Shown: positions 11,569 to 54,768 of the stretch, in pieces
Layout of the letters: each line of letters starts with the position of its first letter
How positions within the stretch are numbered: position 1 is the stretch's first letter
Assembly: GCF_027886475.1 (NCBI RefSeq)
Contig: NZ_CP115670.1
Coordinates: forward strand, 186,001 to 250,000
Direction of reading: 5' to 3'
Source of the DNA: Corynebacterium sp. SCR221107
GTDB lineage: Bacteria; Actinomycetota; Actinomycetes; Mycobacteriales; Mycobacteriaceae
DNA: 64,000 nt
Made by a program: the position numbers and the translations under genes
The notes under the pieces: generated by a model
Told to the model about the DNA's origin: nothing
Databases searched by the model: none
The model's input: only the letters and a program-made list of their open reading frames with translations

Positions 11569-11643
11569 TGTCCTTCGTCTTCGGTGCCTTCGATGGCCCC
11601 GCAGGCACCCGCCTTTGCGTAGCCGCCGGGAAACGCTCAGGGA

Positions 11644-12830: not shown

Positions 12831-12948
12831 GTGCTTTCATCCTTCTGGCTGAGTGGGGTGCGAGGCTGTGACAGTACGGGCGCGCGCACAACCGGAGGGA
12901 CGAGAGGTCGCGGCGCGCGCCCAGCGCGGGCCCCTCGCAGACAGATCC

Positions 12949-13809: not shown

Positions 13810-13823
13810 TGCATTGCCTTCTT

Positions 13824-14630: not shown

Positions 14631-15646
14631 TTCACGAGTCCCTTCTCCTTGAGCTTGCTCATCATGTCTGTCCGGGAGCTGTTCGGGACCTGTTGCAAGG
14701 TCATCTTCACGCCCAGATCATTAATTGCTTTGTAGGCAGCGACGTGCTCGTCGTTGACGGAAACCGCCTCCGTGATCAGCGTCATGCCGGTTTTATAGGT
14801 GACTCCGCCGACGTTGACCTCGTCGACCTTGATGCCTGCCTGCAGCAGCTTTAAGGCATCCATGGGGCTTTCCACCACAATCATGGTGCGCATTCCCTGG
14901 TAGTCGGGGTTGAAGTACACGCGGATTGTCTTGTCCACGGTGAGGACGTTGGTCCGTGCGGACGCGGGGCCGACCTGAAGCAGGAGCGTCTTGCGAAGGT
15001 GGTCGTGGGCCGCGTCGTCGCAGGCCGCGATGAGAGTGTCAGGTGCGACATTGTTGACCCACGATCCTGCGACCTGGCCGTGAATGAGGCGGGAATCGAT
15101 GCGCAGGAAAGCCACGTTCATGTGGACGTTCGGATCGCGCGGGAAATTCGGATCAATCTCAGCGCTTGCCGTACCTGCAGCGCTGGCAGTGCCGTCGGCG
15201 TCATTCGTTGCGGAGGGCTGCTCCGCCTTCGGCTTGCTTGCCGACGCCTTCGGTGCCTGACCTTGCTTGAAGGAGCGAACGCTTGCGCTGCCCGCCTTGA
15301 GCGCGCGCTTGACGATTTTCTCGACCGTCGCGTTGGGGCGCTTCGAAGCTTCGAAGACATCCATGAGCATAGGGATGTTAACGCCGGAAATGACGTCGGC
15401 ATTGTCGCGTTCTGCAACAAAGCGGGCACCAGCGTTATAAGGGCTTCCACCAAAAAGATCCACGAGGATGAGAACTTCCTCCGCTTGGCCTGCAGCCTTT
15501 TCATAGGCTTCTAGCAGGTCGTCGGGACCCTGACCTGGGAGAAAGGTCACGGTATGAACGTTTTCGACCTCGCCGTGGATCATGATGGCAGAATCCAGCA
15601 GCGCCGGGGCAGATTCCCCATGTGCCGCGATAATTATTGAGACCAT
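14627..15646 (-). CDS. manX: PTS mannose/fructose/sorbose family subunit IIAB
   Basis: The 339-residue fused IIA-IIB protein has MVSIIIAAHGES at the N-terminus (phospho-accepting His9) and LVDLFGGSPYNAG in the IIA fold. An Ala/Ser/Lys/Pro linker (about 130-172) follows, then the IIB domain with FLRIDSRLIHGQVAGSW, whose histidine takes the phosphate. It passes phosphate from HPr to the incoming sugar in the cytoplasm. It is the first gene of manX-manY-manZ-HAD-small membrane protein. A CAAACGTTTG palindrome 68-77 bases upstream of the start resembles a LacI-family or catabolite operator. Confidence 0.93.
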   Translation of the reverse strand: MVSIIIAAHGESAPALLDSAIMIHGEVENVHTVTFLPGQGPDDLLEAYEKAAGQAEEVLILVDLFGGSPYNAGARFVAERDNADVISGVNIPMLMDVFEASKRPNATVEKIVKRALKAGSASVRSFKQGQAPKASASKPKAEQPSATNDADGTASAAGTASAEIDPNFPRDPNVHMNVAFLRIDSRLIHGQVAGSWVNNVAPDTLIAACDDAAHDHLRKTLLLQVGPASARTNVLTVDKTIRVYFNPDYQGMRTMIVVESPMDALKLLQAGIKVDEVNVGGVTYKTGMTLITEAVSVNDEHVAAYKAINDLGVKMTLQQVPNSSRTDMMSKLKEKGLVK

Positions 15647-16470
15647 CTGTTTCTCCGTACTAGCGGTGAACTAACTTTCTGAAGATCAGCCCAAGGCCCT
15701 CAATAGTGTTGTGCAAACGTTTGAATGCCCTGCGCGTGAGGCTCATGCTATGCCCGTTTTGTGGGGTTGCGCAATCGGCTGTGACCTAGGAAATACACAA
15801 GATTGCTTGAATAAGGTACGGCTGGGAAGATGTCGATAATGGGCGATTTACAGCTGATACATGTTCGTATTCGTTTCTAAAAGACAAAAAGAATGACCCC
15901 TAATGAGGGTATTTTAGACTGTCTCAAAAACCACAAATGTGGATGTGGAAACACTTACCAGTCCCATGAAAGGGGGTGTTAAATTTCCGAACGGAAGTGG
16001 GAATGTGGCAAAAGTATGAAAAATGGCACACCGCTGAGGGGCGAAAAAGGGCGCGCCCGAGGCTGGTGGGGGCCGGGATTTCTGCGCTTGTGGGTGCCTC
16101 GTCGATTGGGTAAGAGGGCTCAGAATGAGGCCTTTGTGGTGTCGCCAACGTCGCTTGCCGTCTTCGTTGTGTCAAGGCTGGTGGGCCTGGCGCAAGCTTG
16201 AGTCACCATTGAGTCGGCGACGGGTTCTGGCGCCGTCGGCCGTTGACGTTTCGGATGAGAGAATACGGCTGAAATCGACGAATCGACCTCAGGCGAGGGG
16301 GAGATAACGGCCGACAGTGCAGGCAAGGTGATGGTGGGGCAAGTGGTCGGTGCGCTGGGAAAGGTGGCGGTCGGCGGCAGCCAAGGCTGTAGATAGGGCA
16401 AGGCGTGGTGCCTGCCCGAAGGTAGGTGGCGGCTTGGGCGCAGACGCGCTCATGACGGTGATTGTTCGTG
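15647..16470. other. Gene-free stretch upstream of the man PTS operon
   Basis: These 824 bases lie between manX and a GNAT gene. The left 280 bases are AT-rich and hold the PTS promoter and a LacI-type palindrome. The right part is GC-rich and has only weak, unsupported reading frames. I see no RNA gene or repeat I can name there. Confidence 0.5.
15714..15723. promoter_or_regulatory. LacI-type operator half-sites upstream of manX
   Basis: CAAACGTTTG, in the context TGCAAACGTTTGAA, has the central CG typical of LacI/GalR-family operators. No LacI gene is in the window. Confidence 0.5.
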
Positions 16471-17181
16471 CTACTGAAGCTTCGTCTTGAAATGCTGCAG
16501 CGATTCCACCTGCACTCCTTCGCGGAAATTGGCCGGATCAAGCCACGCCTCGAATGCGCGTTTGTGTGCGGGCCATTCGCTATCGAGGAGGGAGAACCAG
16601 GCGGTATCACGATTGCGCCCTTTGTACACGGTGGCCTGACGGAAGGTTCCCTCGTGGCTGAAGCCAAGGCGTTCGGCCGCGCGGCAGGAGGCGGCGTTGA
16701 GGCTATCGCACTTCCACTCATAACGCCTATAGCCCAAGGTGTCGAAGACGTAGGCCATCGCAAGGTACTGCGCCTCGGTGGCGGCGATGGTGCGCTTGAG
16801 CAAGGGCGAATACATCACCCATCCCATCTCAATCACGCCGTGGCGTGGGTCATGACGCATGAGCGCGAAAGTTCCCCTTGCCTTGCCGGTTTGCTTATCG
16901 ACGATGGCCATATGCAACGGATCCTTCGACTGGGCGTGGGCGTGGAGAAGCTCGCGGAACTGGGTGGTTGATTCGAAGGGGCCTACGGGCAGGTACGTCC
17001 AGAGATCGCCGTGCAAAGCGGCGCTGAAGGCGTCGGCAAGCTGGTCGAAGTGAGCGTGACCCAGCGGTTCAATGCGGCAGTAGCGGCCCTCGAGCGTAAC
17101 CGGCTGCGGCGGGCGTGCGGGAAGAAAATCCGGCAATGCCTGGCCAATGGGTTGCCCATATTCATTGAACTGGGAAGACAT
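16471..17181 (-). CDS. GNAT family N-acetyltransferase (RimJ/RimL-like)
   Basis: The product of about 236 residues begins MSSQFNEYGQPIGQALPDFL and has the RimJ/RimL layout: LEGRYCRIEPLGHAHFDQLA, then YRRYEWKCDSLNAASCRAAE (acetyl-CoA-binding and substrate core), and LGFSHEGTFRQATVYKGRNR with D-TAWFSLLDSEW. The family acetylates N-termini or small molecules such as amino acids and antibiotics. ATG 17181 is chosen over GTG 17190 because of a GGGG stretch before it; this is uncertain. It is monocistronic. Confidence 0.85.
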   Translation of the reverse strand: MSSQFNEYGQPIGQALPDFLPARPPQPVTLEGRYCRIEPLGHAHFDQLADAFSAALHGDLWTYLPVGPFESTTQFRELLHAHAQSKDPLHMAIVDKQTGKARGTFALMRHDPRHGVIEMGWVMYSPLLKRTIAATEAQYLAMAYVFDTLGYRRYEWKCDSLNAASCRAAERLGFSHEGTFRQATVYKGRNRDTAWFSLLDSEWPAHKRAFEAWLDPANFREGVQVESLQHFKTKLQ

Positions 17182-41700: not shown

Positions 41701-41726
41701 TGCGGAGGATGTGGGATTTGAACCCA
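41701..41726. repeat. attL of the integrated element
   Basis: The 26 bases TGCGGAGG ... GAACCCA are identical to 52928-52953, the 3' end of tRNA-Ser(GGA). Sequence diverges immediately on the inner side. Confidence 0.9.
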
Positions 41727-41818
41727 AATCAGCCCCAGGCCAGCTAGGTGTACATGTCGGTTTAGCTGGTCTTTTACCTATTTTCAATCACGTGGAATAA
41801 GCCGGAATTTTGTCCCAT

Positions 41819-41848
41819 TGTGTCCAAAACGTGTCCAAAAAACACCAC
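41819..41848. promoter_or_regulatory. Probable integrase arm-binding repeats, left arm
   Basis: Two direct GTGTCCAAAA units (with spacer C) are followed by ACACCAC. The same 30-base block with one change is at 52851-52880, at the other end of the element. Confidence 0.7.
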
Positions 41849-42148
41849 CCGCACCGGCACTATTCCCATGAACAAGTCCCCAACTTGAAAACTCCACTTG
41901 GCTACAACCCCCACTACCACCACACCACGTAGGCACCCCTGGTGGCCTCTAGAAACGTCTCAATGCCTCCCGCTGGCACAATCACCCACCCATGGGGAGA
42001 GAGAGAAGTTGACGGGCGCCAAGCAGGGAGGGGTCATCTACCCTACCCCTCTAAGATTTTTAGGGGTACCTAAGGTGGGTGGTGTGGTGGTGAATCTTCA
42101 TTATGATTGCACGCAATTAGAAGTTATGTTGTGTCATAAAACACGTGT

Positions 42149-42174
42149 GACCTCCCGCTATGTGGCGAGAGGTC
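42149..42174 (-). terminator. Terminator of the capsid operon
   Basis: GACCTCCCGC and GCGAGAGGTC form a 10-bp stem with one mismatch, 15 bases past the last minus-strand gene. Confidence 0.65.
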
Positions 42175-42188
42175 AACTTGTGTGGTGG

Positions 42189-42860
42189 TTATCTTACCCA
42201 GCCTCGAACTTCTGGATTGCCTTCTACTTCGTCTTCGAAGCTCGGGTCATGTTCGTAGCCGATCTCAAGCCGGGGTATTTCCTGCGCCCGGTTGAGTGCT
42301 ACGAGGGTGCGCTGCTTGTCCAAAAGGTAGGACTGAATCCATTTTTCACGCAATCCTGGGGTGGCGCGTGAGAGGCGGATTGCCTGGTCAACTACTTGTT
42401 CCGCTTCCAAGCGGCCGGTCTGCTTCTTAGCACGCAAACCGATCTCGAGTGGTTCCTGCATTTGCTCCCACACGTCCTGGTCGACAACGACGTCGCCGGG
42501 GGCGGTGACCGCGCTGGAGAGTTGGGTTGCCCTGTTGGGTGTGGGGGACTTGAGGGTTACCGCGCTCCTCATTTGCTCCCACATGTAGGCGTCAATGTGG
42601 GTGGCGCCTAAGGCTAGGGCGTTAGCTACCTCACCTTCTTGGTCTGTGCTGGCAGGGTCGAGTAGTTCGGTGATCTTCGCAACGAGTTCGTCGGTGGTGG
42701 CTGTTTCAGCGTCCAGGCCGGTGATGGAACACAGGGTGTCCCACTGGTCGGGGCTTAGGGTGTAGCCGTCTTGTGTTGGGGTGTCGGTGGTGGGTTGGTC
42801 GATGGGGGTGGCGGCCATGTGGACGACAGTGCGCCCGTTGCGCCTGTTAAGTAGACCCAT
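42189..42860 (-). CDS. Phage scaffold-like protein at the end of the capsid operon
   Basis: The 223-residue protein begins MGLLNRRNGRTVVHMAATPI; ATG 42860 follows AGGAG. It contains WDTLCSITGLDAETATTDEL and a charged helical C-terminal part (AEQVVDQAIRLSRATPGLRE ... KWIQSYLLDKQRTLVALNRA). That end resembles the C-terminal scaffold section of Mu gpI-type protease/scaffold proteins, though here it is separate from the protease gene at 45762. It is last in the minus-strand capsid operon. The assignment rests on pattern and place only. Confidence 0.5.
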   Translation of the reverse strand: MGLLNRRNGRTVVHMAATPIDQPTTDTPTQDGYTLSPDQWDTLCSITGLDAETATTDELVAKITELLDPASTDQEGEVANALALGATHIDAYMWEQMRSAVTLKSPTPNRATQLSSAVTAPGDVVVDQDVWEQMQEPLEIGLRAKKQTGRLEAEQVVDQAIRLSRATPGLREKWIQSYLLDKQRTLVALNRAQEIPRLEIGYEHDPSFEDEVEGNPEVRGWVR

Positions 42861-43019
42861 GGTGTTTCTCCTGTCAGTATGCGAGGGATACGAGGGCGTC
42901 GGTGCCTGCGTCGGCGTTGTTTGCGGCGTAGCCAACGATCGCGGCCTGGTCGACTGCTTTCGTGAGGCGGCCTGAAGTGATCGGAGACTAGGTTTTACCC
43001 TAGGAGGACGATCAGCATC

Positions 43020-43352
43020 ATGGCACGACCCAGTCAGTACGACGCAGCTACGCAGGACCGCGCGGTGCGCATGTACTTCGAGCGCCTCGAGGAAGGCGAC
43101 ATCTCCAAGGCCGGCGCCCGCCGGGAGATCGGCGAGTTGCTCGGCGTGAAGGAATCGACGCTGCGCAACTGGATCCGCAGGCACGAGCAGCAGTCGCAGG
43201 CCCCGGAGCCCGGTTCCCTGTCCTACGAGCAACTCCAGGCCGCTTACGACGAGCAGGCCAAGGAAGTGGCCAAGCTGCGTCGGGCCAATGAGATCTTGAA
43301 GACGGCGTCGGCTTTTTTCGCCCAGGCGGAGCTCGACCGCAAACTTCGGTAA
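43020..43352 (+). CDS. IS3-family transposase OrfA
   Basis: The 110-residue protein begins MARPSQYDAATQDRAVRMYF, with an HTH (EIGELLGVKESTLRNWIRRH) and a leucine-zipper-like end (SYEQLQAAYDEQAKEVAKLR, RANEILKTASAFFAQAELDR). It binds IS ends and can be fused to OrfB by frameshifting. The ATG follows AGGAGG. Confidence 0.92.
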   Translation: MARPSQYDAATQDRAVRMYFERLEEGDISKAGARREIGELLGVKESTLRNWIRRHEQQSQAPEPGSLSYEQLQAAYDEQAKEVAKLRRANEILKTASAFFAQAELDRKLR

Positions 43353-43354
43353 TC

Positions 43355-44284
43355 GTGGACTTCATCCGCACCTACCGCCACCGCTTCGGAGTCGAGCCAA
43401 TCTGCGAAACACTCACCGCCCATGGCATCGCGATTGCCCCAAGCACCTTTTACGCCCACCAGGCCCGCGGGTTCGGCCCTTCGGACGCCGAGTTGGATCA
43501 GGCCTATGCCGCTCACCGCATCTACCGGCTATGGGAGGCCAACCGCAAGGTCTACGGCCGCCGTAAACTCTGGAAGGCCGCTGTCCGCGACGGCATGAGC
43601 ATCGGTCGTGACCAGGTCGAACGGCTGATGAAGATCACCGGCATCCGCGGTGTCTCACGCGGGATGCACCGTAAGAAAACGACGGTGGCCAACCCCGCTC
43701 ACCGCCGGCACCCGGACCGGATCAACCGCAGATGGACGTACCCGTCGCACCCGGATCAGTGGTGGATCGCGGACTTCACCTACGTGTGGACCCGCCAGGG
43801 CTTTTGTTACGTCGCCTTCATCGTCGACGCCTATTCGCGGATGATCCTCGGCTGGGTGGTCACCACGGTCATGGACACCCGGATGGTGCTCATGGCCCTG
43901 GAACACGCCCTGTTTTCCCGCCGGCGCACCCGCATGGACTTCACCTCCACCGGCATCGTCCACCACTCGGACGCGGGAGCCCAGTACACCTCGCTGGCGT
44001 TCACGGACGCGCTGACAGAGGCCGGGTTGCAGGGCTCGATCGGCTCGGCCGGTGACGCCTTGGATAACGCGATGATGGAGTCGACGATCGGGCTCTACAA
44101 GACTGAGCTCATCGACTTCGACCCTGCACGGACATGGAGGGATGCCCAGGAGGTCGAAACGGAAACGGCCTCGTGGGTCTACTGGTATAATCACCAGCGT
44201 CTGCATTCGTCGATCGGTGACGTTCCCCCGATCGAATACGAGCAGGACTACGAGGAATTCAACATCATCAGAAGAGCCCAGTAA
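43355..44284 (+). CDS. IS3-family transposase OrfB (DDE integrase)
   Basis: The 309-residue protein starts MDFIRTYRHRFGVEPICETL. Catalytic residues are in WWIADFTYVWTRQGFCYVAF (Asp), VHHSDAGAQYTSLAFTDAL (Asp) and AMMESTIGLYKTELI (Glu). It lies 2 bases after OrfA and is normally made as OrfAB by -1 frameshift. All three acidic residues are present, so the element may be active. Confidence 0.93.
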   Translation: MDFIRTYRHRFGVEPICETLTAHGIAIAPSTFYAHQARGFGPSDAELDQAYAAHRIYRLWEANRKVYGRRKLWKAAVRDGMSIGRDQVERLMKITGIRGVSRGMHRKKTTVANPAHRRHPDRINRRWTYPSHPDQWWIADFTYVWTRQGFCYVAFIVDAYSRMILGWVVTTVMDTRMVLMALEHALFSRRRTRMDFTSTGIVHHSDAGAQYTSLAFTDALTEAGLQGSIGSAGDALDNAMMESTIGLYKTELIDFDPARTWRDAQEVETETASWVYWYNHQRLHSSIGDVPPIEYEQDYEEFNIIRRAQ

Positions 44285-44635
44285 GGCTTTTACCCGTAGT
44301 CTCCGAAAAACTCAGGCCGATTCATTCGTTGCTTTACCTGCTGTGCCTACGGCGATGGGGTCACCTGCTACCAGTTGGGTTTCTGCTGTCACTGTGACGA
44401 TACGACCGGCGCCCCTGGCTACACCTACCAGTGTGTTTGTGTCGGCGTCGTACTTGGCTACCCCAGCGGTGGGCTTACCGGCGGTGGCGGTGGTGACGGT
44501 GATTAGGTCACGGGTCATTGCCCCGGCGTAACCGAGAAACGTTTTACCGGTGACAGCGGTGGCGGTCACGGCGGTAAGGTCGGTTCCTGGGTTGAAGCGG
44601 TCGAGCATTTGGTTTGTGTACATGTGAGGTTCCCC

Positions 44636-45523
44636 TTATTCTGCGATTCCGGAAATCTTGGCGATGGCGGCGGGCATGGTGACACCGATCACGGGCATGG
44701 CGTAGCCTTGCACCCACGTCTGTCGGTGATGTTCGTCACGCCAGGTGGTGATGGTTAGTGGTTCCTCGTAGCGCACGAAACCGGCTTTACCTGGGTCAAC
44801 GAGGTAGGCGGCGTCTGCGTCAACATAGTTGGAGGTCAACAGTTCCAGACCTAGGTCGGTGAGCATGGGGGCAAGGTCAGCGCCGTAGATCATGCGAAGG
44901 GTTGCCTTCGTGAGCGGGTTAACAATCGCATTCTGGTAGGTGATACCTAGGTCTTTGACCTCTGCAAGTGCGATGGCGTCGGCGAGGTTGGTTAGGGGGC
45001 GCTGGGCTGGTGGGGTCACTGCAACGGGGTCGGCGAGGACTACCTGGCTCCAGGGCAAGGTGGCCACGACCTGGATAGCGTGGGCTTCGGCGGCCTTGAT
45101 GGTTTCCATTGCCCGCTGGTTGAGTTTGCGGGTAATCGTGTTCGCCAAGGTTTGAACGTCGTTGTCGAAATCAACGGCCTGGTTGCGGCGGCGCGCCTCG
45201 TCCGAAACGGCGAACTTGCCACCGTAATCTTCGACTTTTGCCAGCTTGGCCTCGGGCTTTTCGCGGTAGACGACCGCGTACTCGTCGCCGGGTTGCCGCT
45301 GCGTCACATCGTTTTGGGTGTAAAAGTTCTTTTCGGTGATTTCCGAGTAGATCACGGCGCCACCCTCAACTGGTTGCGCGTCGCTTGCGAAAACCGCGTC
45401 GATCAACAGGTTCTTTGAGGCGACTTCGGCGACGCGCTCTTCGATGGTGGTTGGATTGTTCAGCGCCTGCTCAATGGTGATTACACCCTTATTGAGGTCG
45501 GCGGCTCCAGGGTAAAAGCCCAT
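44636..45523 (-). CDS. Phage major capsid protein (HK97-like)
   Basis: The 295-residue protein begins MGFYPGAADLNKGVITIEQA; ATG 45523 follows GGAGAGGAG. It has the actinophage capsid pattern: an N-arm (VAEVASKNLLIDAVFASDAQ), YGGKFAVSDEARRRNQAVDF, a long spine helix (TITRKLNQRAMETIKAAEAH), NAIVNPLTKATLRMIYGADL and a C-terminal PVIGVTMPAAIAKI. It lies between a small gene and the decoration protein in the order protease - small gene - capsid - decoration. I judge it from composition and context. Confidence 0.72.
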   Translation of the reverse strand: MGFYPGAADLNKGVITIEQALNNPTTIEERVAEVASKNLLIDAVFASDAQPVEGGAVIYSEITEKNFYTQNDVTQRQPGDEYAVVYREKPEAKLAKVEDYGGKFAVSDEARRRNQAVDFDNDVQTLANTITRKLNQRAMETIKAAEAHAIQVVATLPWSQVVLADPVAVTPPAQRPLTNLADAIALAEVKDLGITYQNAIVNPLTKATLRMIYGADLAPMLTDLGLELLTSNYVDADAAYLVDPGKAGFVRYEEPLTITTWRDEHHRQTWVQGYAMPVIGVTMPAAIAKISGIAE

Positions 45524-45526
45524 GGT

Positions 45527-45757
45527 TTACTCCTCTCCTTCGTTGGTGGTTGTGGTTTCATGTTCGGCCTGGGCGGTGATGTAGCCCAGTGTCCAGGCGG
45601 CGAGGAATGCTAGATTCTCGTAGGCGGGGACGTGGCCGTTAATGCCAGGCACCTTAGCTAGGGTGTGGGCGACTGGGCTGTCGCCGGGGTTGAGCTTCCG
45701 GTCAATGGGGAGTTGGCTCATGGTTTCCATGAAGCCGTGTTCAATGATTTGTGTCAC
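45527..45757 (-). CDS. Small capsid-operon protein (76 residues)
   Basis: The start is GTG 45757 after AAAGGAGC; it begins 4 bases after the protease stop and ends 3 bases before the capsid start. The sequence (TQIIEHGFMETMSQLPIDRK ... VPAYENLAFLAAWTLGYITA ... HETTTTNEGEE) shows no motif I know. It is probably a head-assembly helper by place. Confidence 0.6.
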   Translation of the reverse strand: MTQIIEHGFMETMSQLPIDRKLNPGDSPVAHTLAKVPGINGHVPAYENLAFLAAWTLGYITAQAEHETTTTNEGEE

Positions 45758-45761
45758 AGTT

Positions 45762-46241
45762 TTAGCTCCTTTCCAGGAGGTCTTGGAGGGATTGAAGGTC
45801 GGTGACCGCTGGCCACGTTTCGCCAAGCAGGGCTAGGCCGGTGAGTGCACACCGGTAGGTGCGCCCCTGGTCACGAAGTCCGAAGTGAAGTTCGACACTG
45901 CGTTGCGGGTAGGCGTTGACAATGTGGTCAGCCAGCCACCCGGGTAGGTTCTCGAGGTCACCAACGAGGGATTGCCCCCGGTTAGCTAGGCGAAGGTTGG
46001 TGACCTGCCCAAGGTTGGGTGACCCGTCGAACTGGCTGCCAGGGTTGAACCTGGGGTCTTGGTGCCCCAGTTTGATGGTTGGTGGTGGTAGGTGCTTGGA
46101 GGCGGCGACGATTGCTGCGAGGTCGGCGGTGGTGTAGCGGCGTCTGCCACCTACCGCACCTTGCCACACACCAGTGGTGAGCAGTTCGACGCCCTCAATG
46201 ACGCTGCGATCAGTGGCGATAGTCGCGGAAGGTTTCGACAT
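45762..46241 (-). CDS. Phage capsid protease, Mu gpI-like N-terminal domain
   Basis: A protein of about 159 residues: VELLTTGVWQGAVGGRRRYT, LAAIVAASKHLPPPTIKLGH, then GSPNLGQVTNLRLANRGQSL, LPGWLADHIVNAYPQRSVEL, and RCALTGLALLGETWPAVTDL. This is the order in the gpI/COG4388 protease family, where the KLGH and (R)SVE/ALLG parts form the active core. The scaffold C-terminus of that family is missing here. ATG 46241 overlaps the end of the upstream HTH gene by 32 bases; no better start is seen. Confidence 0.68.
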   Translation of the reverse strand: MSKPSATIATDRSVIEGVELLTTGVWQGAVGGRRRYTTADLAAIVAASKHLPPPTIKLGHQDPRFNPGSQFDGSPNLGQVTNLRLANRGQSLVGDLENLPGWLADHIVNAYPQRSVELHFGLRDQGRTYRCALTGLALLGETWPAVTDLQSLQDLLERS

Positions 46242-46578
46242 CGCTGCGGTCGAACCACCACTTGCCTTGCTGTTTCCAGCCGGGGAGGCGTTGTCTGCCC
46301 GCGAGGGTGCGGACGTTTCGAGTGGAACAACCCAGAATCTTTGCTGCGCTGGTGGCGTCGATCTGCTCATATTCAAGATTGTCTTCTTCGGCCTGGGGTG
46401 GGGGTTCCGGATTTCCGCAAATGGAAACAATTTCTCCGGCGAGCTTCATAATTCCAGGGTTGACCCGTTGCCCACGCCCTTTGCAAAAGTCCGCAAGGGC
46501 GAAGACTGTTTTGGCCAGGCGCCGGGCGTCGGCATAGGTCAAGGTCACGCCATGGCCCGGTAGGTGTGTGACGTTCAC
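46210..46578 (-). CDS. Helix-turn-helix protein of the element
   Basis: The 122-residue protein starts at GTG 46578, overlapping the previous stop as GTGA. Residues 1-60 are helical (YADARRLAKTVFALADFCKG, MKLAGEIVSICGNPEPPPQA). Residues 72-120 form an excisionase/MerR-like HTH: EYEQIDATSAAKILGCSTRN, VRTLAGRQRLPGWKQQGKWW, FDRSDVETFRDY. A regulator of the capsid operon is a reasonable guess because it is placed between replication and capsid genes. Confidence 0.65.
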   Translation of the reverse strand: MNVTHLPGHGVTLTYADARRLAKTVFALADFCKGRGQRVNPGIMKLAGEIVSICGNPEPPPQAEEDNLEYEQIDATSAAKILGCSTRNVRTLAGRQRLPGWKQQGKWWFDRSDVETFRDYRH

Positions 46579-46781
46579 GCACCGCCTCCTTCTATCTGGT
46601 CGGCGATCTGGTTAATGAAGGCAATGGCGCGTCCTAGCTGCATTTCAATCCTGGTGCCATCGTCGAGGTGAAGAACAAGACGGCGGCCGGTGCTAGTGCC
46701 TGTCTGCACTTCTGTAGCGATGTGGGTTGTTACCCATTTCCGGTAGGGGGTGCATATGCGTGCGCGGATAAGTTGACTCAT
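46575..46781 (-). CDS. Small element protein (68 residues)
   Basis: MSQLIRARICTPYRKWVTTH ... GRRLVLHLDDGTRIEMQLGR ... INQIADQIEGGGA. The start ATG 46781 follows AAGGAG; it is 12 bases after the replication gene and overlaps the HTH gene by 4. The small beta-rich core has no motif I can name. Confidence 0.6.
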   Translation of the reverse strand: MSQLIRARICTPYRKWVTTHIATEVQTGTSTGRRLVLHLDDGTRIEMQLGRAIAFINQIADQIEGGGA

Positions 46782-46793
46782 GGCGAAGGCTCC

Positions 46794-49019
46794 TTAAGGG
46801 CGGAAATATTTTTCGTTTCGGTAGATCAGTGCCCCGTCTTCAACGAGGGCGGCAAGAATGGTGCGCACCGTGTCCTGGTCGGCTGTTTTGGTGGGCACGC
46901 AACCGAGTAGCACTCTCTCGCTAAGCCCAACTTCGGTGCTGGTTGAGTCAACGAGGGCGTGCTTGACTTCTTCTTCCCGTGGGTGCGGAATGGGGGATAC
47001 TGTGGGGGTAGTTGGGGTGTTGGTTTCCCAGCCATTGTGTTGGTTGTGGGGGTGGCCTCCAGTTGTGCCACTGCCTTTTTCACCGTCTCCGGTTGTGCCA
47101 CTGTGTTTTTGCAGGTCAGTCCCAGTCGTGCCAGTCGTGCCAGTCGTGCCATGTGTAAGGGTTGCGACGGTTGTGCCACCAGTTGTGCCACATTCCTGGG
47201 GTGTGGCATAACTGGAAAAATCAAGCGTTTTTTGGGCTTGTTTTTGCAGGTCAGTTCCAGTCGTGCCAGTCGTGCCACTAGTGTGATTCCTGTGGCTATC
47301 TAGTGGCACGACTGTAGCGGGGGTAGGAAGTGCCCATGTAGCTACACGTGGAAACCCAGAAACGGACGAAACGCCACCTAGTTTCTTGAACGCACGAGCA
47401 AGGCTACGTTCGGCAATCCCTACCTTCTTCGCGGCGGTGACGATCGTCTGCCTAGGGCATGCCCCACGCTCTGTGAGGTAGTCATGAAGCCACAATTCCG
47501 TCTCCGTCTTCGACCCTTGTTCTTCGCCACCCTGCCTGTCGAGAAATTCGGTTGCCACCTCGTCGGTGAAATCTCCCCACACGAGCGCCCCAACATTGGT
47601 GAGATCACCATCATAAAGTTGCACGGGGCGTGATTCGATATGTGCACGCCTGGAGACAATGCCCGTGGCGAGATTCGCCTTCGTGTTGGACACGATCAGG
47701 TTGCCGTCATCGTCAACTGCGGCGGATATCACGCTACGGGCGATCTGTGACCATGCGATCGACCCCAACAGTAGGCGTCCAGTGTCTTTGCCTTCGGCCT
47801 TACCGAAGTGAGCCAGCCCCAGCACAGTGATTTTGTGCTTGTCGGCGGCGGCTGCCAGTGGCTCCAGGAACTGTCGAACGTGGTCATCTTTGTAGCCGTC
47901 CAACTTGGAGTCCATGGCGGACTTTGCTGCGTCGAGTACAACAAATTCCACGCCCTTTGCCGCTAGCGCCTCGAACAACAGGGTGGTGTCTTGTGGTAGC
48001 TTCAGGTGCCCTTCGGTACCTTCTGCTGTTTGCACATCAACGAAAAACAGCCGGTTGAGGTCGGCGCCTGCGGCCTGGAGGCGTGGTTTCACCGTGAAAC
48101 TACGTGAGTCTTCGGTATTCAGGTAGGCGGCGTTCATGCCCCGGCGGGTAAATTCTGCAACCCACGAACACGCAATTGTTGACTTACCGATACCTTCGCG
48201 CCCTGCCAGCAAGGTAAGCATGTTTCGTGGTATCCACTGGTCAACCAACCAGTCGACTTTCTCCGTTTTCACGGAACAAGCTGGGGTTAGCACGATGTGA
48301 CGGCGCCCCACGGTGGGTTCAACTTCTACGAGTTCGTCGAGGCCATACCCGGCGGCGACATGATCGGAAAAGTCATTGCCCACTTTCGCGGCCATGACCG
48401 AGATCGACGCGGGCGGCGTGGACATGGCCTGAAGGTGGTTTTTCACCTTCGCGGCGCGAGTCATGCCCGGTGTGTCAGCGTCCTGGACAATAATGACGTC
48501 ACGGCCTGCAAGGGGTGCCCAATCAGCCTTACTAGGTGGCGTGCTGGCACCCTGTGCCTGCGACACAGCGGGAACACCTAGCACGTTGACGGCGGTGTTG
48601 ACGTCCTTCTCACCCTCAACCACGAGCACAGTGGTGTTAGGCCAGCGGTTGAGCGTGTCCTGCCCGTATAGGGCGGTGCCCTTCTTGTTTCCAGCTTGGG
48701 TGAAGGTTTTTTTCCCTTCCTTCGTGAAGAACCGGGTGACACTTCGGCCATCTGGGTATGTGTAGGTGGTGCGTGGTTGGTCGTAGAGATCGGCATATGT
48801 CAGCCCGAGTGCGTCGAGGACGTCGCCTTTATCAGCGTTGAAAGTGTGAACGAGAATAGAGTCACCGGTGTAGGTGACACTGGTTCCTCGGTCTTCGGCG
48901 GAATGGTTGGGTGTTTGGAAACTAGCCCGCTTCCCCCGCTCCAGTTCCTTCCAGATCAACCCGTGGTTTTCTACTGCCTGTCGTAGTCGTTCGTATGAAT
49001 TTAGACCGTTGCTTGGCAA
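46794..49019 (-). CDS. TOPRIM primase / RecA-fold helicase replication protein
   Basis: The 741-residue protein has an N-terminal part (1-125) like phage primases, a TOPRIM domain (VLVVEGEKDVNTAVNVLGVP, RDVIIVQDADTPGM), then a RepA/RecA-type ATPase (Walker A LAGREGIGKSTIACSW near 265-285; Walker B VEFVVLDAAKSAMDS; ITVLGLAHFGK). A GTT-rich repeated segment (about 575-655, units GTTGTTGTDLQK) and a C-terminal winged-helix-like end follow. It starts replication of the excised element. The start is TTG 49019 after AAAGGAG. The repeated segment is also a cluster of GTYGTGCCA motifs on the plus strand. Confidence 0.88.
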   Translation of the reverse strand: MPSNGLNSYERLRQAVENHGLIWKELERGKRASFQTPNHSAEDRGTSVTYTGDSILVHTFNADKGDVLDALGLTYADLYDQPRTTYTYPDGRSVTRFFTKEGKKTFTQAGNKKGTALYGQDTLNRWPNTTVLVVEGEKDVNTAVNVLGVPAVSQAQGASTPPSKADWAPLAGRDVIIVQDADTPGMTRAAKVKNHLQAMSTPPASISVMAAKVGNDFSDHVAAGYGLDELVEVEPTVGRRHIVLTPACSVKTEKVDWLVDQWIPRNMLTLLAGREGIGKSTIACSWVAEFTRRGMNAAYLNTEDSRSFTVKPRLQAAGADLNRLFFVDVQTAEGTEGHLKLPQDTTLLFEALAAKGVEFVVLDAAKSAMDSKLDGYKDDHVRQFLEPLAAAADKHKITVLGLAHFGKAEGKDTGRLLLGSIAWSQIARSVISAAVDDDGNLIVSNTKANLATGIVSRRAHIESRPVQLYDGDLTNVGALVWGDFTDEVATEFLDRQGGEEQGSKTETELWLHDYLTERGACPRQTIVTAAKKVGIAERSLARAFKKLGGVSSVSGFPRVATWALPTPATVVPLDSHRNHTSGTTGTTGTDLQKQAQKTLDFSSYATPQECGTTGGTTVATLTHGTTGTTGTTGTDLQKHSGTTGDGEKGSGTTGGHPHNQHNGWETNTPTTPTVSPIPHPREEEVKHALVDSTSTEVGLSERVLLGCVPTKTADQDTVRTILAALVEDGALIYRNEKYFRP
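47061..47313. repeat. GTYGTGCCA repeat cluster inside the replication gene
   Basis: On the plus strand the 9-10 base unit (A/G)GT(T/C)GTGCC(A) occurs at 47061, 47091, 47124, 47133, 47142, 47169, 47181, 47259 and 47268, and inverted at 47304. A block of about 38 bases (TGTTTTTGCAGGTCAGT... on) is duplicated near 47105 and 47240. It could be an iteron-type origin or a simple coding repeat. Confidence 0.55.
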
Positions 49020-49170
49020 CTCCTTTACCCAGCCTTCCTTTGGTGTGCGACGTTTGACTATTCAGTTGTGCACTATTCAGTTGTTCCCGTTTCCGGTTGT
49101 GCGCGCCCTGGACTCGAACCAGGGTGTAGGCCGTTCGCGCTCCCACCTCCCCTATCAGGGGGGCGTCATG

Positions 49171-49407
49171 TTACTGCTCTTCTTCGGCGCGCAGGTAGGC
49201 CGTGATATCGGTCTTCGCAAGCTGCTTCCACGCGGCGTCTGCAATATCGGACGCGAGAGTTTCGACGTCGATATCCTCTTCGTCGAACCAGTCGGTGAAG
49301 ACTTCGCGGATTGCAGATTCCAACGACTCACTCAAGGTGTAGCCATTGCGGTTGACTGCCCGCGCAAGATCGGGGATTGTGGTTGCACTGTAGATTCGAT
49401 CGCTCAT
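49171..49407 (-). CDS. Small element protein (78 residues)
   Basis: MSDRIYSATTIPDLARAVNR ... YTLSESLESAIREVFTDWFD ... DIADAAWKQLAKTDITAYLR. ATG 49407 follows GAAAGGAG. It is acidic and helical. It is the last gene of the early group before the replication gene. No family is recognised. Confidence 0.6.
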   Translation of the reverse strand: MSDRIYSATTIPDLARAVNRNGYTLSESLESAIREVFTDWFDEEDIDVETLASDIADAAWKQLAKTDITAYLRAEEEQ

Positions 49408-49455
49408 GAGCGGTCTCCTTTCAGGGTGTGGGTGAATGAAAAAGGTGGTTGGGGG

Positions 49456-49668
49456 TTACTGGTCGAGGGCGTGGGTTTCAACGATCGCCCAGAACTCTTC
49501 CGGTGTAAGCCCCCTGCGAAGGCGATAGCCATAGCTGATTCCCGCACCAACGGTTTCGAGTACTTCGTCGGCGATTGCCTCAACATCGAACGCGTCCTCG
49601 TTTGGGGCGATGGTGCCGATGATCTCAACTTCGATCGCCTCACGGCGGGTGCTGTGGACGGCGTTCAT
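49456..49668 (-). CDS. Small element protein (70 residues)
   Basis: MNAVHSTRREAIEVEIIGTI ... DVEAIADEVLETVGAGISYG ... LTPEEFWAIVETHALDQ. ATG 49668 overlaps the stop of the 34-residue gene (ATGA). It is an acidic alpha/beta protein without a known motif. Confidence 0.6.
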   Translation of the reverse strand: MNAVHSTRREAIEVEIIGTIAPNEDAFDVEAIADEVLETVGAGISYGYRLRRGLTPEEFWAIVETHALDQ

Positions 49669-49769
49669 GCCGCTACCTGCCCTTCGTCGGCACTTAGGTG
49701 CTCAATGGCGTAGGCCAGCAGGATTTGGTCGGCCTGTTCGAGTAGCTGGGTCACTTCGATGGCGTTCAT
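49665..49769 (-). CDS. Very small element protein (34 residues)
   Basis: MNAIEVTQLLEQADQILLAY then AIEHLSADEGQVAA. It is joined on both sides by 4-base ATGA overlaps (49766-49769 and 49665-49668), which is strong evidence that it is translated. One amphipathic helix is likely. The role is unknown. Confidence 0.6.
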   Translation of the reverse strand: MNAIEVTQLLEQADQILLAYAIEHLSADEGQVAA

Positions 49770-50488
49770 GCTTGGCCACCTCGTTCGCCTGCCCACATGG
49801 CGCGCTCTTCCTCAATCCTTTCCACGAGCAAGCGGGTGCCCTCCTCGAAGGTCATGGTGTTGACCAGGGCGGCTACATCGTTGAGGTGCCTGGCGAGGTC
49901 ACCGTCTAGGGAGTCAGCGCTGGCTACTTGGCCTCGAGAAATGACGCGGGCGAGTTCGTCGAACAGGTCAGCCTCAACGTCGGTGCTGTCGTCATTGCTC
50001 CAGGTGGTGAGTCCGAGGCGGTCGAGTTCGGCCTGGTCAATGGCAACCATCGCCGCAACTAGGCGGCTGTAGTCGCGCCCATCACGCTTAGCGGCGATCA
50101 GCTGGGTTTTCAGATCGGCGGCGCCGAAGACCTGACCTAGGGTGGCTTCGCGGGCGATACGGTCTTTCGTGTCCTCCCACTCACGCTCTCGGCGCTGTTT
50201 CTTAGCTTCGCGCAGGTAGCGGGCGTGTTCAATCTCGCGGCAATCCTGGCAGATGGTGACGGTGATATGGCCAGCGGCGGCGCGTTTAACGTCTTCGTCT
50301 GTCAGGGCGAACACTCGAGATCGGCGGGGCATTCGACTTCCGTCTTTCATGACGAACGATTCACCGGTGCTGTTTCGGTGGTCAATGAGGTGTAGACTTA
50401 CTGGTTGCATGACATTCTCCTTCTCATAGGTGGTGTTTCCCTCGTTGGACGCGGCAACGTCCACGGGGGTTTTCTTCGCTCTTGGCAT
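49766..50488 (-). CDS. Element protein of unknown function (240 residues)
   Basis: The protein begins MPRAKKTPVDVAASNEGNTT. A Cys pair (ITVTICQDCREIEHARYLRE) suggests a small metal knuckle, and a strongly charged coiled-coil-like part follows (AKKQRREREWEDTKDRIARE), then helices (SRLVAAMVAIDQAELDRLGL, ARHLNDVAALVNTMTFEEGT). ATG 50488 follows GAAGGAG. It lies between the early HTH gene and the small genes. No family is known to me. Confidence 0.6.
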   Translation of the reverse strand: MPRAKKTPVDVAASNEGNTTYEKENVMQPVSLHLIDHRNSTGESFVMKDGSRMPRRSRVFALTDEDVKRAAAGHITVTICQDCREIEHARYLREAKKQRREREWEDTKDRIAREATLGQVFGAADLKTQLIAAKRDGRDYSRLVAAMVAIDQAELDRLGLTTWSNDDSTDVEADLFDELARVISRGQVASADSLDGDLARHLNDVAALVNTMTFEEGTRLLVERIEEERAMWAGERGGQA

Positions 50489-50501
50489 GGTGGTGTCTCC
50501 T

Positions 50502-50774
50502 TCAGGGTCGGATGGTTTTGTGTGTGACCTGGCACATCATGAGTGCTTCCTCGAGGTAATCGTCCACGTCGGCGCGCTCTAGCGAAGCACCATCACTGTC
50601 CAGGTACGCGAGGACGCGGACGGCCTCGTGTGCGTCCGAGAACACGAGCAGGGGTTCACCGAGCACTGAAAGTGCAACCCACTCCTCTTCGACCGCGCCC
50701 AAGTAATCGAAACCGGTGGTCACAACCGCGTTGCTTAGCGTGAAAACGTCCTTGATTCGTTGAAGTGTCGCCAC
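50502..50774 (-). CDS. Small element protein (90 residues)
   Basis: GTG 50774 follows AAGGAG. ATLQRIKDVFTLSNAVVTTG ... WVALSVLGEPLLVFSDAHEA ... LEEALMMCQVTHKTIRP. It is mixed alpha/beta and unassigned. It is the second gene of the early minus-strand operon, 11 bases after the AlpA-like gene. Confidence 0.6.
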   Translation of the reverse strand: MATLQRIKDVFTLSNAVVTTGFDYLGAVEEEWVALSVLGEPLLVFSDAHEAVRVLAYLDSDGASLERADVDDYLEEALMMCQVTHKTIRP

Positions 50775-50785
50775 GGTGACGCTCC

Positions 50786-50983
50786 TTAAGCCGCAGGGAT
50801 TTCGTCAGTACGAGTTTTGATTTGGCTTTCAACCCATTCGTCAACGTCTTGAGGACGGTAAAACACGCGGCGCCCAACCTTGTAGAACTTCGGACCAGTG
50901 CCGTCGTAGCGCTTCTGCGCCCAGGTTTGGCGAGTGGTATTTGGAAACCTCTTAATCATGTCGTCTGGGGTGTAGTCCGACAT
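50786..50983 (-). CDS. AlpA/excisionase-like helix-turn-helix protein
   Basis: The 65-residue protein is a single winged HTH: MSDYTPDDMIKRFPNTTRQT, WAQKRYDGTGPKFYKVGRRV, FYRPQDVDEWVESQ. This is the AlpA/Xis-type fold used by P4-like satellites and many integrated elements to turn on excision and early genes. ATG 50983 follows AAGGAGGTTCC. It is divergent from the XRE repressor, so 50984-51092 is the switch region. Confidence 0.82.
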   Translation of the reverse strand: MSDYTPDDMIKRFPNTTRQTWAQKRYDGTGPKFYKVGRRVFYRPQDVDEWVESQIKTRTDEIPAA

Positions 50984-51092
50984 GGGAACCTCCTTATCTC
51001 ACAGTATCGAGCACCTGTAAACTGTGCCCAAGACAGATATAACCACCACCCACCAAATTTGTCAATATCTAAAATCTTGTAGACTGTGCTTC
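50984..51092. promoter_or_regulatory. Divergent switch region between AlpA-like and XRE genes
   Basis: Direct repeats TGTAAACTGTGC (51016-51027) and TGTAGACTGTGC (51078-51089) are likely repressor sites; the second overlaps the -10 of a leaderless XRE transcript (TAGACT, 7 bases, ATG). Confidence 0.55.
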
Positions 51093-51776
51093 ATGACTAG
51101 TCAGCACCCAACCCTTGCCGAAGTAGTCGGGGAAAATGCCCGCAAATTCCGAGGTAGCCACACACTTCAGGAAATAGCCGTCGCGGGAAAAACCTTTGGA
51201 ATGAGTTGGTCAAGTGGGTCTGTCCAAGCGATCGAGAGAGGAAACTTCAAACCAACAATTGAGACGGTAGCCGCGCTTCTTTTCGCGATCAGCACCGCGA
51301 CAGGCAACCATGAAATTCGACTTACAGACCTATTTGCGCATGACGGGTCAATAAGAATCAGCGAGAAAATACTTTCCTCGTCCGCACATATTGCCCGCTG
51401 GCTTAAGCATGGCACACCCGAAGGAATTGTCGATCGACAAGCCACTTATCCAACTTTGGACGAAGTAATCGCATTGGCGAAACACAGGGCTAAGCGATAC
51501 GAGGAACTCAACCTACCCCCGATCAGTATTGAGGAATTGGCAAGCCTCGAAAGAAAACCGGCGACCCCAACCGAGGAACGGCTGGCGGGTAAGGAAAACA
51601 TGGACGTTCTCGAGCTACGCGCTTGGTCACAGTTTCTTTGGCAAACCACCCTTGAAGATCACCGCAACAAATTGTCCGGACAAAATGCAACGCCCCAAAA
51701 AAAAGGGCGCGTGACCAGGACACTATTAGACGAAATTCTCAAAGCACGAGCAAAGGAACAACATGTCGGCGATTAA
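51093..51776 (+). CDS. XRE-family repressor of the element
   Basis: A 227-residue protein. An N-terminal HTH spans about 8-75 (GENARKFRGSHTLQEIAVAG, WSSGSVQAIERGNFKPTIET), followed by a long helical C-terminal part. The start ATG 51093 has no ribosome site and fits a leaderless transcript from the switch region, as in many phage repressors. It ends inside the integrase gene (14-base overlap), so repressor and integrase are co-expressed. Confidence 0.8.
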   Translation: MTSQHPTLAEVVGENARKFRGSHTLQEIAVAGKTFGMSWSSGSVQAIERGNFKPTIETVAALLFAISTATGNHEIRLTDLFAHDGSIRISEKILSSSAHIARWLKHGTPEGIVDRQATYPTLDEVIALAKHRAKRYEELNLPPISIEELASLERKPATPTEERLAGKENMDVLELRAWSQFLWQTTLEDHRNKLSGQNATPQKKGRVTRTLLDEILKARAKEQHVGD

Positions 51777-52893
51777 GCGCTACGACGTCAAAGGGGGGCG
51801 CGGCTACAAATGGGAAGTACGCTACCGCACCCCAGACCGGAGTACCACCCGGAGACGTGGCTTCTCATCACGCCGCGACGCTCAAAACTTCCTTGACAAA
51901 CTCAACGCAGAAATGCGAGCAGGGGAATATGTGCGCCCCATCGACGGGCGGGTCACGGTAGGCGAACTTGGAAAAGAATGGCTCAAGAAGAAGCAAGTTT
52001 CCGCTGCACCATCACACTACCGGCCACTCGAAAGTGCTTGGCGGCTACACGTGAAACCACGATGGGGAAACACTCCCGTATCAGCTATAACCACCGGGGC
52101 AGTCGAAGACTGGATAACTGACCTACAAACCGGCGAGAAAAAAACCAGCGCCACCCACATTTTGCGTCTCGTTGGCGTCCTCCAGGGCGTGCTAGACGAC
52201 GCCGTGATAAAGAAGTGCCTTCCAAGAAATCCAGCACGCGGCGTGACGAATCTACCGAAAAAGCACGGCAAACGCCACATATACCTAGAGGCCACAGACG
52301 TGCGACGCATTGCCAATGCGACCGGCAATTCCACGCATGAAACGATCGTTTATGTGCTTGCTTACGCAGGGCTTAGATGGTCGGAACTCGTGGCATTACA
52401 AGTGGGAGACGTCGACTTTGAAAAGCGGCGATTAACAATCTCCAAGAACGCTCCAGAGCGAAACCTACGAGAGACTACCAAATCCGGAAAAATCCGATCT
52501 GTTCCTATTCCACAATTCCTAGCCGACATGCTCCAGGAACAGTGCGCAGGTCGAGGAAATGAAGCCCTTGTATTCCCAGGACGCAATGGTTCATTCTTGA
52601 CGCGCCCCAAAACGGAAACTGGGTGGTTTGAAAAGGCTGTAATCGCGGCTGGAGTTCAGCGAATCACACCACATGACCTAAGGCACACCTGTGCCTCGTT
52701 GGCGGTTCATGCGGGGGCAAACGTTCTTGCCCTCCAGCGCATGCTGGGGCATGCGTCGGCTGCAATGACGCTTGACCGCTATGCAGACCTTCTAGATAGC
52801 GATCTTGATAGCGTAGCGGAGGCTCTCAATACTGTTCATTCTCGGACAAATGTGTCCAAAACGTGTCCAAAAGACACCACTGAGGAAAAGTAA
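51763..52893 (+). CDS. int: Tyrosine site-specific integrase
   Basis: The 376-residue phage integrase has an N-terminal arm-binding domain (about 1-55, YDVKGGRGYKWEVRYRTPDR), a core-binding SAM-like domain (60-155), and a catalytic domain with the RHRY set: AYAGLRWSELVALQVG (Arg), ITPHDLRHTCASLAVHAG (His, Arg), MLGHASAAMTLDRYADLLDS (His, Tyr). It joins the element to tRNA-Ser(GGA). The last codons contain the right arm repeats. It is intact. Confidence 0.95.
   Translation: MSAIKRYDVKGGRGYKWEVRYRTPDRSTTRRRGFSSRRDAQNFLDKLNAEMRAGEYVRPIDGRVTVGELGKEWLKKKQVSAAPSHYRPLESAWRLHVKPRWGNTPVSAITTGAVEDWITDLQTGEKKTSATHILRLVGVLQGVLDDAVIKKCLPRNPARGVTNLPKKHGKRHIYLEATDVRRIANATGNSTHETIVYVLAYAGLRWSELVALQVGDVDFEKRRLTISKNAPERNLRETTKSGKIRSVPIPQFLADMLQEQCAGRGNEALVFPGRNGSFLTRPKTETGWFEKAVIAAGVQRITPHDLRHTCASLAVHAGANVLALQRMLGHASAAMTLDRYADLLDSDLDSVAEALNTVHSRTNVSKTCPKDTTEEK
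52851..52880. promoter_or_regulatory. Probable integrase arm-binding repeats, right arm
   Basis: Two GTGTCCAAAA units as at 41819-41848, here overlapping the C-terminal codons of int. Confidence 0.7.
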
Positions 52894-52895
52894 AA

Positions 52896-52922
52896 CCCTC
52901 TGACCTGCAAAAAGTCAGAGGG
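52896..52922. terminator. Hairpin between int and tRNA-Ser(GGA), element-supplied
   Basis: CCCTCTGAC pairs with GTCAGAGGG. It ends int on the plus strand and, read on the minus strand, gives the tRNA a terminator like the one displaced to 41669. Confidence 0.8.
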
Positions 52923-52927
52923 TTTGT

Positions 52928-52953
52928 TGCGGAGGATGTGGGATTTGAACCCA
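52928..52953. repeat. attR of the integrated element
   Basis: The second copy of the 26-bp attachment core; it forms the 3' end of the functional tRNA-Ser(GGA). Confidence 0.9.
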
Positions 52954-53015
52954 CGAGGGTCGTGAAACCCGCACGCGTTCCAGGCGTGTGACATAGGCCG
53001 CTAGTCGAATCCTCC
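52930..53015 (-). tRNA. tRNA-Ser(GGA), integration target
   Basis: The acceptor is GGAGGAT/ATCCTCC, the anticodon loop CTGGAAC gives GGA, the variable arm is long, and the T loop is TTCAAAT. CCA is not encoded. The element restores its 3' end. Confidence 0.95.
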
Positions 53016-53332: not shown

Positions 53333-53402
53333 GCATTTCTAGGGCCTGACCTCCTTGTTTGTTCAATTACAACGGCACACAAACTCGGAAGGAGCCATCA
53401 CG

Positions 53403-54768
<1,366 letters not shown>

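Follow-up and report, generated by a model that had tools for sequence, protein, structure and literature searches.

A probable phage satellite in Corynebacterium with its own shell genes and a cos-like block that also occurs in prophages from a different capsid lineage

Positions 186,001 to 250,000 of contig NZ_CP115670.1 from Corynebacterium sp. SCR221107, a 64,000-nucleotide stretch designated here as the window, contain a compact integrated element with an integrase, a primase-ATPase and genes for a phage-like capsid. The original prediction for this stretch, made from the letters alone, held that such an element supplies a shell and its own replication, and would need portal, terminase and tail from a helper. 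Our main finding is that the element bears, beside its capsid operon, a block of about 87 bp that the prediction had overlooked, and that this block is common to a family of compact elements and to 11 prophages of another capsid lineage. The features of the element are listed below (window positions, strand in brackets; counts refer to the 13 related elements of the genus described further on; E-values are from Pfam or PHROGs profiles).

41701-52953: whole element, attL to attR, 11,253 bp, between identical 26-bp attachment (att) repeats at a tRNA-Ser gene
41701-41726: left att repeat, 26 bp, identical to the right repeat
41990-42076 (-): block resembling a cohesive-end (cos) site, 3' of the scaffold gene, with model matches at 41994-42066
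42148-42175 (-): terminator-like hairpin after the scaffold stop, distinct from the cos-like block
42189-42818 (-): scaffold gene, C-terminal half of phrog_3894 (E 9e-13), in 13/13 elements
about 42964-44324 (+): IS3-type insertion sequence (IS; rve and HTH_Tnp_1), ends set by comparison with the related element L028
43020-43352 and 43355-44284: transposase open reading frames (ORFs) within the IS3-type insertion
44312-44623 (-): decoration gene, cut by the IS (phrog_673, E 9e-13)
44636-45523 (-): major capsid protein (phrog_1650, E 2e-57; Phage_capsid_4, E 2e-14), with a modelled HK97 fold
45527-45826 (-): small protein of 99 residues with no assigned function, in 11/13 elements
45762-46430 (-): maturation protease, N-terminal half of phrog_3894 (E 8e-46)
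46210-46578 (-): helix-turn-helix (HTH) protein 5' of the protease (HTH_17, E 6e-7), in 12/13 elements
46575-46781 (-): small conserved gene, in 8/13 elements
46794-49019 (-): primase-ATPase (AAA_25, E 5e-27; DNA primase/helicase PHROGs)
49171-50774 (-): early genes with no assigned function (49171-49407, 49456-49668, 49766-50488, 50502-50774)
50786-50983 (-): AlpA-like HTH gene (HTH_17, E 8.5e-5, below the family cut-off; phrog_66, excisionase and regulator, E 7e-4)
51024-51776 (+): putative repressor, divergent from the AlpA-like gene, so named from its position and a relative in L032, with no Pfam match
51763-52893 (+): tyrosine integrase (Phage_integrase, E 8e-28)
52928-52953: right att repeat, within tRNA-Ser(GGA) 52929-53015 (-)

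On the minus strand the order is AlpA-like gene, small early genes, primase-ATPase, HTH gene, protease, 99-residue protein, capsid, decoration and scaffold, and the plus strand carries the putative repressor and the integrase. The predicted att ends in tRNA-Ser(GGA), the integrase, the primase-ATPase and the protease, capsid and decoration genes are all borne out by the repeats and the profiles. In the predicted XRE/AlpA switch, the 'XRE' gene of this copy draws no match from Pfam even at E 1, and its label comes from position and from HTH_3 matches in relatives. An att-flanked island with integrase, divergent regulators and replication gene has the make-up of a phage-inducible chromosomal island (PICI) in the wide sense, the repressor being identified here without Pfam support. 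The scaffold ORF extends open upstream to 43232, its start lying probably near 42818-42860, at either 42818 or 42860; the true start of the protease lies inside the ORF 45762-46430, which overlaps the HTH gene. Inside both element ends, at 41819-41848 and 52851-52880, are 30-bp repeats (97% identical), each with TGTCCAAAA twice, which are likely integrase arm sites.

L028 is a sister copy of the element in the same genome, and comparison with it shows that the IS3-type element is flanked by a 5-bp target duplication. The IS leaves a decoration protein of 103 residues, against 127 in L028, and parts the scaffold gene from the rest of the operon, so that the operon spacing, which the original prediction took to be unbroken outside the IS, is not intact in this copy. 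Minus the IS and one duplication, the element would measure about 9.9 kb by arithmetic. L028 itself spans 14.3 kb, with its integrase interrupted; judged by its ORF sizes and a single IstB match of a pooled scan, the interruption appears to be an insertion with IS21-like genes (11104-16652 of that locus). Between the two copies the capsids are 93% and the small proteins 100% identical, and the ratio of nonsynonymous to synonymous substitution rates (dN/dS) is 0.37 for capsid, 0.45 for decoration, 0.13 for scaffold and 0.14 for protease, and 3.5 on six changes for the HTH gene.

The 295-residue capsid is a phage capsid or major head protein by both Pfam and PHROGs, and accompanies a maturation protease, as in capsid-forming PICIs (cfPICIs). 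Its HK97 fold had been named beforehand as a point on which the prediction could fail. A structure model from ten sequences (predicted local distance difference test, pLDDT, 70; predicted template modelling score, pTM, 0.69; residues 50-104 poor) matches encapsulins and phage capsids of the PDB (best E 1.1e-9, probability 1.00), and by this model the window capsid has the HK97 fold. PDB sequence searches with the capsid and scaffold profiles gave nothing meaningful, low-E matches of the scaffold profile to protein A constructs being set aside as helix similarity. The separate protease and scaffold correspond to the N- and C-terminal halves of one phage protease-scaffold family, phrog_3894, which makes a scaffold of the ORF at 42189 that had been called scaffold-like; kinship of this gene with phages is visible only with profiles, tblastn giving no match in phage records. 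The scaffold bears WVR at its end or one residue before in 13/13 elements. Four elements (L029, L032, L035, L038) have no full-length upstream protease, and in these same four the scaffold ORF bears an extra N-terminal domain, read from the alignment as a ClpP-like protease; a protease is therefore predicted in all 13, of two unrelated types. Short protease-profile matches in L029, L032 and L038 fall on the HTH gene but in a different frame, and we did not count them as proteases.

The predicted absence of packaging, connector, tail and lysis genes also held. When the 15 ORFs of the element were scanned against Pfam and PHROGs, no family for terminase, portal, connectors, tail or lysis matched convincingly; terminase-like matches were limited to a weak one of the putative repressor (PHROG, E 0.033) and several of the IS HTH ORF. 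Among these ORFs we found no portal or head-tail connectors, no large or small terminase subunit (TerL, TerS) and no HNH gene, all of which a cfPICI has (a small divergent TerS is possible), no tail genes, which a cfPICI also lacks, and not the terminase, portal, tail and lysis genes of an intact prophage. In the 12 element-bearing genomes, the TerL profile phrog_9 matches in three (G018, G028, G189) and the portal profile phrog_104 in G028 and G189 only; no match of either profile lies at an element or in the window's own genome. Matches of phrog_2 occur in 9/12 of these genomes, none at an element; they are strong at two TerL loci of G028 and lie elsewhere between 2.5e-5 and 9e-4 (once in the window's genome, at 2,228,021), and the weak ones were discounted, a control being positive in 11/14 genomes. 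The 13 elements hold 227 further candidate non-core ORFs of at least 90 residues, of which 100 were scanned, picked mainly by length (140 residues or more) and omitting several within insertions. Among 25 of the 26 Pfam families matched there were HTH, primase/helicase, transposase, recombinase and single weak families, none for packaging or tail, and 25 of the 47 PHROG families matched likewise included none.

The capsid matches at 26 places in 24 of 201 genomes of the genus, and 20 places were opened (the window and 19 others, those of G166, G183, G172, G085, G057 and G147 being left out). At 13 places in 12 genomes capsid identity to the window is at least 49%, the window included, and all 13 elements are compact, with no TerL or portal match at any; the 12 others range from 49 to 93%, and one is in the window's genome. 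Seven of the 13 places at 25-33% identity were opened, and six resemble full prophages (L042, L043, L045 and L046 by ORF lengths, L041 and L044 by PHROG), L040 being unclassed. Besides the window, ten compact elements have tRNA-anchored repeats of 25-51 bp, L038 has a 16-bp repeat only, and in L037 ends were not found. The nine uninterrupted tRNA-anchored elements measure 9,487-10,511 bp (mean 9,976). The carriers include C. minutissimum, C. hylobatis, C. sputi, C. dentalis, C. marambiense, two further Corynebacterium species and two Dietzia. Profiles match capsid, decoration and scaffold in 13/13 elements, HTH gene and integrase in 12 each and the small protein in 11, and replication genes vary. 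Close relatives are thus compact rather than full-length prophages, as the original prediction required; because 12 other elements share the capsid block and the same absences, the window element is not a recent deletion derivative. IMG/VR viral contigs held no relative, and the best 10 of 16 matches in plasmid records cover the IS region only. In L034, two tRNA-Leu-like copies 2.7 kb apart with a common att sequence (5902-8664) look as if another element or a remnant adjoined the satellite.

A BLAST comparison of the 13 compact elements with 18 prophage or phage stretches gave two strong matches outside genes, from L033 (in G018; 91% over 100 bp) and from L038 (in G028; 89% over 102 bp), each to a prophage in the same genome. 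On the satellite side the matched regions lie 3' of the scaffold gene; on the prophage side they are flanked by an HNH gene and TerS-TerL-portal. By eye, a block of about 87 bp was recognised in 12 satellites: a AAATCTTAG-type motif, CTGACTC, a C-rich centre, AGTCAG, then TTTCTCTCTC or a T-rich variant. Its letters are conserved, with a second motif at near-fixed distance. A sequence-only model from these 12 satellites, window included (R1), finds these two prophage sites, which it had not seen (1e-15, 4e-11), and a site in L037 (1e-8); L068 and L085 give weak rows and L040-L046 no match. Over the 201 genomes, R1 finds 16 further loci at E 5.5e-5 or better; nine are prophages with the order HNH - block - TerS - TerL - portal - protease/scaffold - capsid, and one, L141, could not be classed. 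In the 11 prophages the block begins 0-44 bp after HNH, and the TerS ORF starts 19-68 bp past it in eight, about 1 kb past it in two and overlaps it in one. Two other models, R2 from the 11 prophage sites and R3 from ten satellites with the window's own pair excluded, each give a single match in the 64-kb window, the same 41994-42066 (-), at E 2.4e-9 and 5.3e-7 respectively, the E-values of all three models being rough. The element would accordingly carry the helper-type cos site of a cos-dependent satellite, cos function being predicted from the letters.

Several further loci bear the block. In L034 (8898-8976), L035 (12474-12535) and L039 (8473-8536), a second, inverted partial copy lies near the first. 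L145 (G072:C10), a second element of G072 whose ends were not found, has an integrase, a window-type primase, a 598-residue prohead-protease/capsid fusion (Peptidase_S78, Phage_capsid; 5857-7653) and a cos-like block at 7853, with no TerL or portal match; by its sequence the fusion is a second, unrelated shell. L137 and L138 (near-identical), L142, L144 and L150 have the block and no TerL or capsid match in 10-16 kb, four with an integrase and some with a primase; by eye they share a protein of about 140 residues, and their make-up suggests satellites that lack a capsid and use the same helpers.

Two corynephages relate the block to physical DNA ends. For phi16, 14-nucleotide 3' cohesive ends are published (available text of PMC5506516), and the last 14 nucleotides of its record are that cohesive end. 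Across the joined phi16 ends the satellite profile aligns at E 2e-5 in 440 residues and the helper profile at 0.001, the cut falling at the right arm of the block's repeat. CL31, with a TerL that shares 75.5% identity with the TerL of prophage L151, has a 16-nucleotide 3' overhang by PhageTerm, according to the available text of PMC8002715. Its record ends sit between an endonuclease-domain gene and TerS, and there the left motif matches (E 6e-5 and 5e-4); the published overhang letters are absent from the record ends as read. Both are full phages with the order HNH/endonuclease-cos-TerS-TerL-portal and the block at their cohesive ends, and theirs is the helper lineage we propose. Because the phi16 cohesive end lies within the block, the block is shared with TerL/portal prophages, and the window site is found by models made without the window, we conclude that the block is very probably cos.

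The two satellites that share a genome with a cos-matched prophage resemble that prophage most (92% against 59% for the next, and 88% against 62%). The scaffold profile of the satellites matches 11/11 helper protease-scaffold proteins at 7e-15 or better, and the shared scaffold domain may let a helper portal enter the satellite shell. The expectation that a helper would be marked by related capsid genes failed: the cos-bearing prophages belong to another capsid lineage, remotely related, and L040-L046 (20 kb each), tried as helpers with kin capsids, gave no cos match. The satellite capsid profile matches Schnabeltier at 1e-102 and helper capsids at 3e-12 to 0.1 (a small set). This Gordonia phage has the closest capsid in phage records (40%), and is a full phage with the order TerS-TerL-portal-protease-scaffold protein-capsid.

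We read the element as a helper-dependent satellite with its own shell and the cos of its helper, member of a conserved family, and give this reading, full mechanism included, a probability of roughly 0.75; that it is a satellite with a helper cos, taken alone, we hold with high confidence. It would integrate in a tRNA gene, be excised by its own integrase and be replicated by its own primase-ATPase, while a single operon would yield protease, capsid, decoration protein and scaffold for a small head. The block being very probably cos, a helper like phi16 or CL31 should package satellite DNA into the satellite-made shell: its terminase would cut at the cos of corynephage type, the DNA would be pumped through the helper portal into the shell, and helper connectors and tail would then join the head. 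The division of labour proposed originally is supported in this form, the cos-like site being shared with TerL/portal prophages. That the satellite shell takes a helper portal, and that helper induction, portal compatibility, particle formation and transfer follow, is what we infer.

Several observations weigh against this reading. Induction, particles and transfer are predictions from sequence. A cos-matched prophage accompanies a satellite in no more than two cases, and G189 has a satellite and a TerL locus with no cos match. A helper prophage, which the original prediction suggested seeking in the window's genome, was found there neither with phrog_9 or phrog_104 nor with the cos model. The window block has 52% median and 55% best identity to single helper sites and is without match in phage records, where nucleotide searches with the downstream region of the window or of L033 also gave none; in the genus, a nucleotide search with the window region recovered the two copies of this genome, all other matches being at E 0.001 or worse (143 of 201 genomes matched at E 1). 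R2 depends in part on R1: 9/11 of its sites were detected by R1, whose training satellites included the window. The L037 block stands 5' of the capsid operon, and in the window copy the decoration gene is truncated.

The best-surviving alternative, which we nonetheless consider unlikely, is a redirection of the SaPIbov5 kind, in which the satellite capsid would enter mosaic smaller heads, the helper supplying most of the shell, with a shared cos. The precedent is Ccm of SaPIbov5, 24% identical to its helper's protein, which forms the pentamers of a T=4 shell with helper protein as hexamers (available text of PMC8569155), and here too satellite and helper capsids are remotely homologous. Both cases involve an HK97-fold satellite capsid protein and reliance, predicted here, on a helper's portal and tail. 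However, as that text describes it, Ccm replaces pentamers only and builds no shell alone, and SaPIbov5 has no identified protease, whereas here scaffold, protease and decoration genes make a fuller shell set beside the capsid gene, whose kin are of another phage lineage (the Schnabeltier and helper E-values above).

Far less probable is a prophage deletion derivative that lost its packaging and tail genes and is decaying, although the IS in the decoration gene of the window and the interrupted integrase of L028 would suit it. Gene set, order and size are alike in 13 elements, the protease and scaffold are separate genes placed in a different order from that in phages, and dN/dS is 0.13-0.45 for four capsid-block genes, the HTH gene being opposite on its six changes. 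Compact elements and phages also stand nearly apart in a tree of 59 capsid rows (36 with the label satellite, 17 with the label phage, 6 with none), which needs two label changes against a shuffled mean of 14.6, even if the compact L178 groups with phages on a long branch, a point against us, and the support of the split is weak (73). Decay is refuted for the family, and a single copy such as that of the window could still be damaged. As improbable is that the block is a terminator or replication origin, implying no helper packaging: it has an inverted repeat, a T run in some copies (L038, L036), and 4/10 folded copies that beat shuffles (z -2 or below), but the window block shows no folding beyond that of shuffles (z 0.5) and is not called a terminator, the window having a separate one at 42148-42175, while the letters and motif spacing are conserved, elements with different primase types share the block, and phi16 DNA ends inside it.

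The arrangement can be set beside those described. cfPICIs (Alqurainy 2023) are likewise integrated satellites with their own capsid and protease and no tail, but by the available text of PMC10690885 and PMC11389934 they have their own portal, head-tail connectors, TerS, TerL and HNH, none of which was found here. MulchRoom and MiniFlayer, Streptomyces phage satellites, are also of actinomycetes and have capsid genes; unlike the present element, their description lists genes for terminase, portal and adapter but no evident replicase, and P4-like satellites, whose cos is likewise recognised by a helper terminase, borrow the capsid protein and merely resize the head (both in the available text of PMC10690885). 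Mycobacterium elements with integrase and capsid, including phiRv1 and phiRv2, have been termed candidate PICIs (PMC10654092, in part), and an older list has mycobacterial elements of 9-12 kb with and without a named terminase (PMC3986857, in part). These resemble ours in size and in having integrase and capsid, likened by description only: the named functions of phiBN42_1 are integrase, excisionase, primase, protease and capsid, as here, whereas terminase, portal and HNH are listed for phiBN44_1 and phiMCAN_1. No helper or cos appears in the available descriptions of phiRv-type elements (PMC10654092, PMC3986857). A survey, in its available part, suspects small actinobacterial prophage-like elements of being satellites (PMC10023795). 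Literature screened by title and abstract start, mostly outside subscription papers, describes no shell-only or Corynebacterium satellites. These partial sources suggest that the element is new relative to described satellites, which borrow the capsid, alter it, or pair it with portal and terminase.

Compact capsid relatives are also present in other genera of the family. Satellites and phages taken together, 43 of 401 genomes, from 13 of 31 genera, have a match to the capsid profile. Among 36 loci in other genera, nine carry both TerL and portal, 22 carry an integrase but no TerL or portal, and five, on contigs below 9 kb, are unclassed. R1 rows up to E 0.1 occur at 11 of the 27 loci without TerL (ten at 0.02 or below, some outside the usual place) and at 0/9 phages. 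In L186 (G264:C2), two capsid elements stand in tandem; their capsids, at 5280 and 14537, are identical in sequence with 9,257 bp between them, and either element has an HNH match beside a weak cos-like row. Next to the tRNA of the window itself, at 53355-54768, a start like that of a phosphotransferase system runs into a glycosidase-like part in overlapping frames (judged by eye), as if a sugar-uptake operon had suffered an internal deletion.

We would put at even odds that these elements form a third, old and widespread 'shell-only' class of satellites, phiRv-type mycobacterial elements included, which joins a full shell set from one phage lineage to a cos from a second one. As the same presumed cos is found on the L145 fusion element and on capsid-less elements, users of a single helper packaging system would have acquired shell genes on at least two occasions. 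If so, the phage head would be split at the portal, with the shell from the satellite and the motor and portal from the helper, and a helper portal would be able to enter a shell of another lineage. The phi16/CL31 lineage, with its mapped cohesive ends, would provide named helper candidates, and a function would be on offer for the 10-kb elements of mycobacteria and their kin that have long been catalogued as prophage-like or defective.

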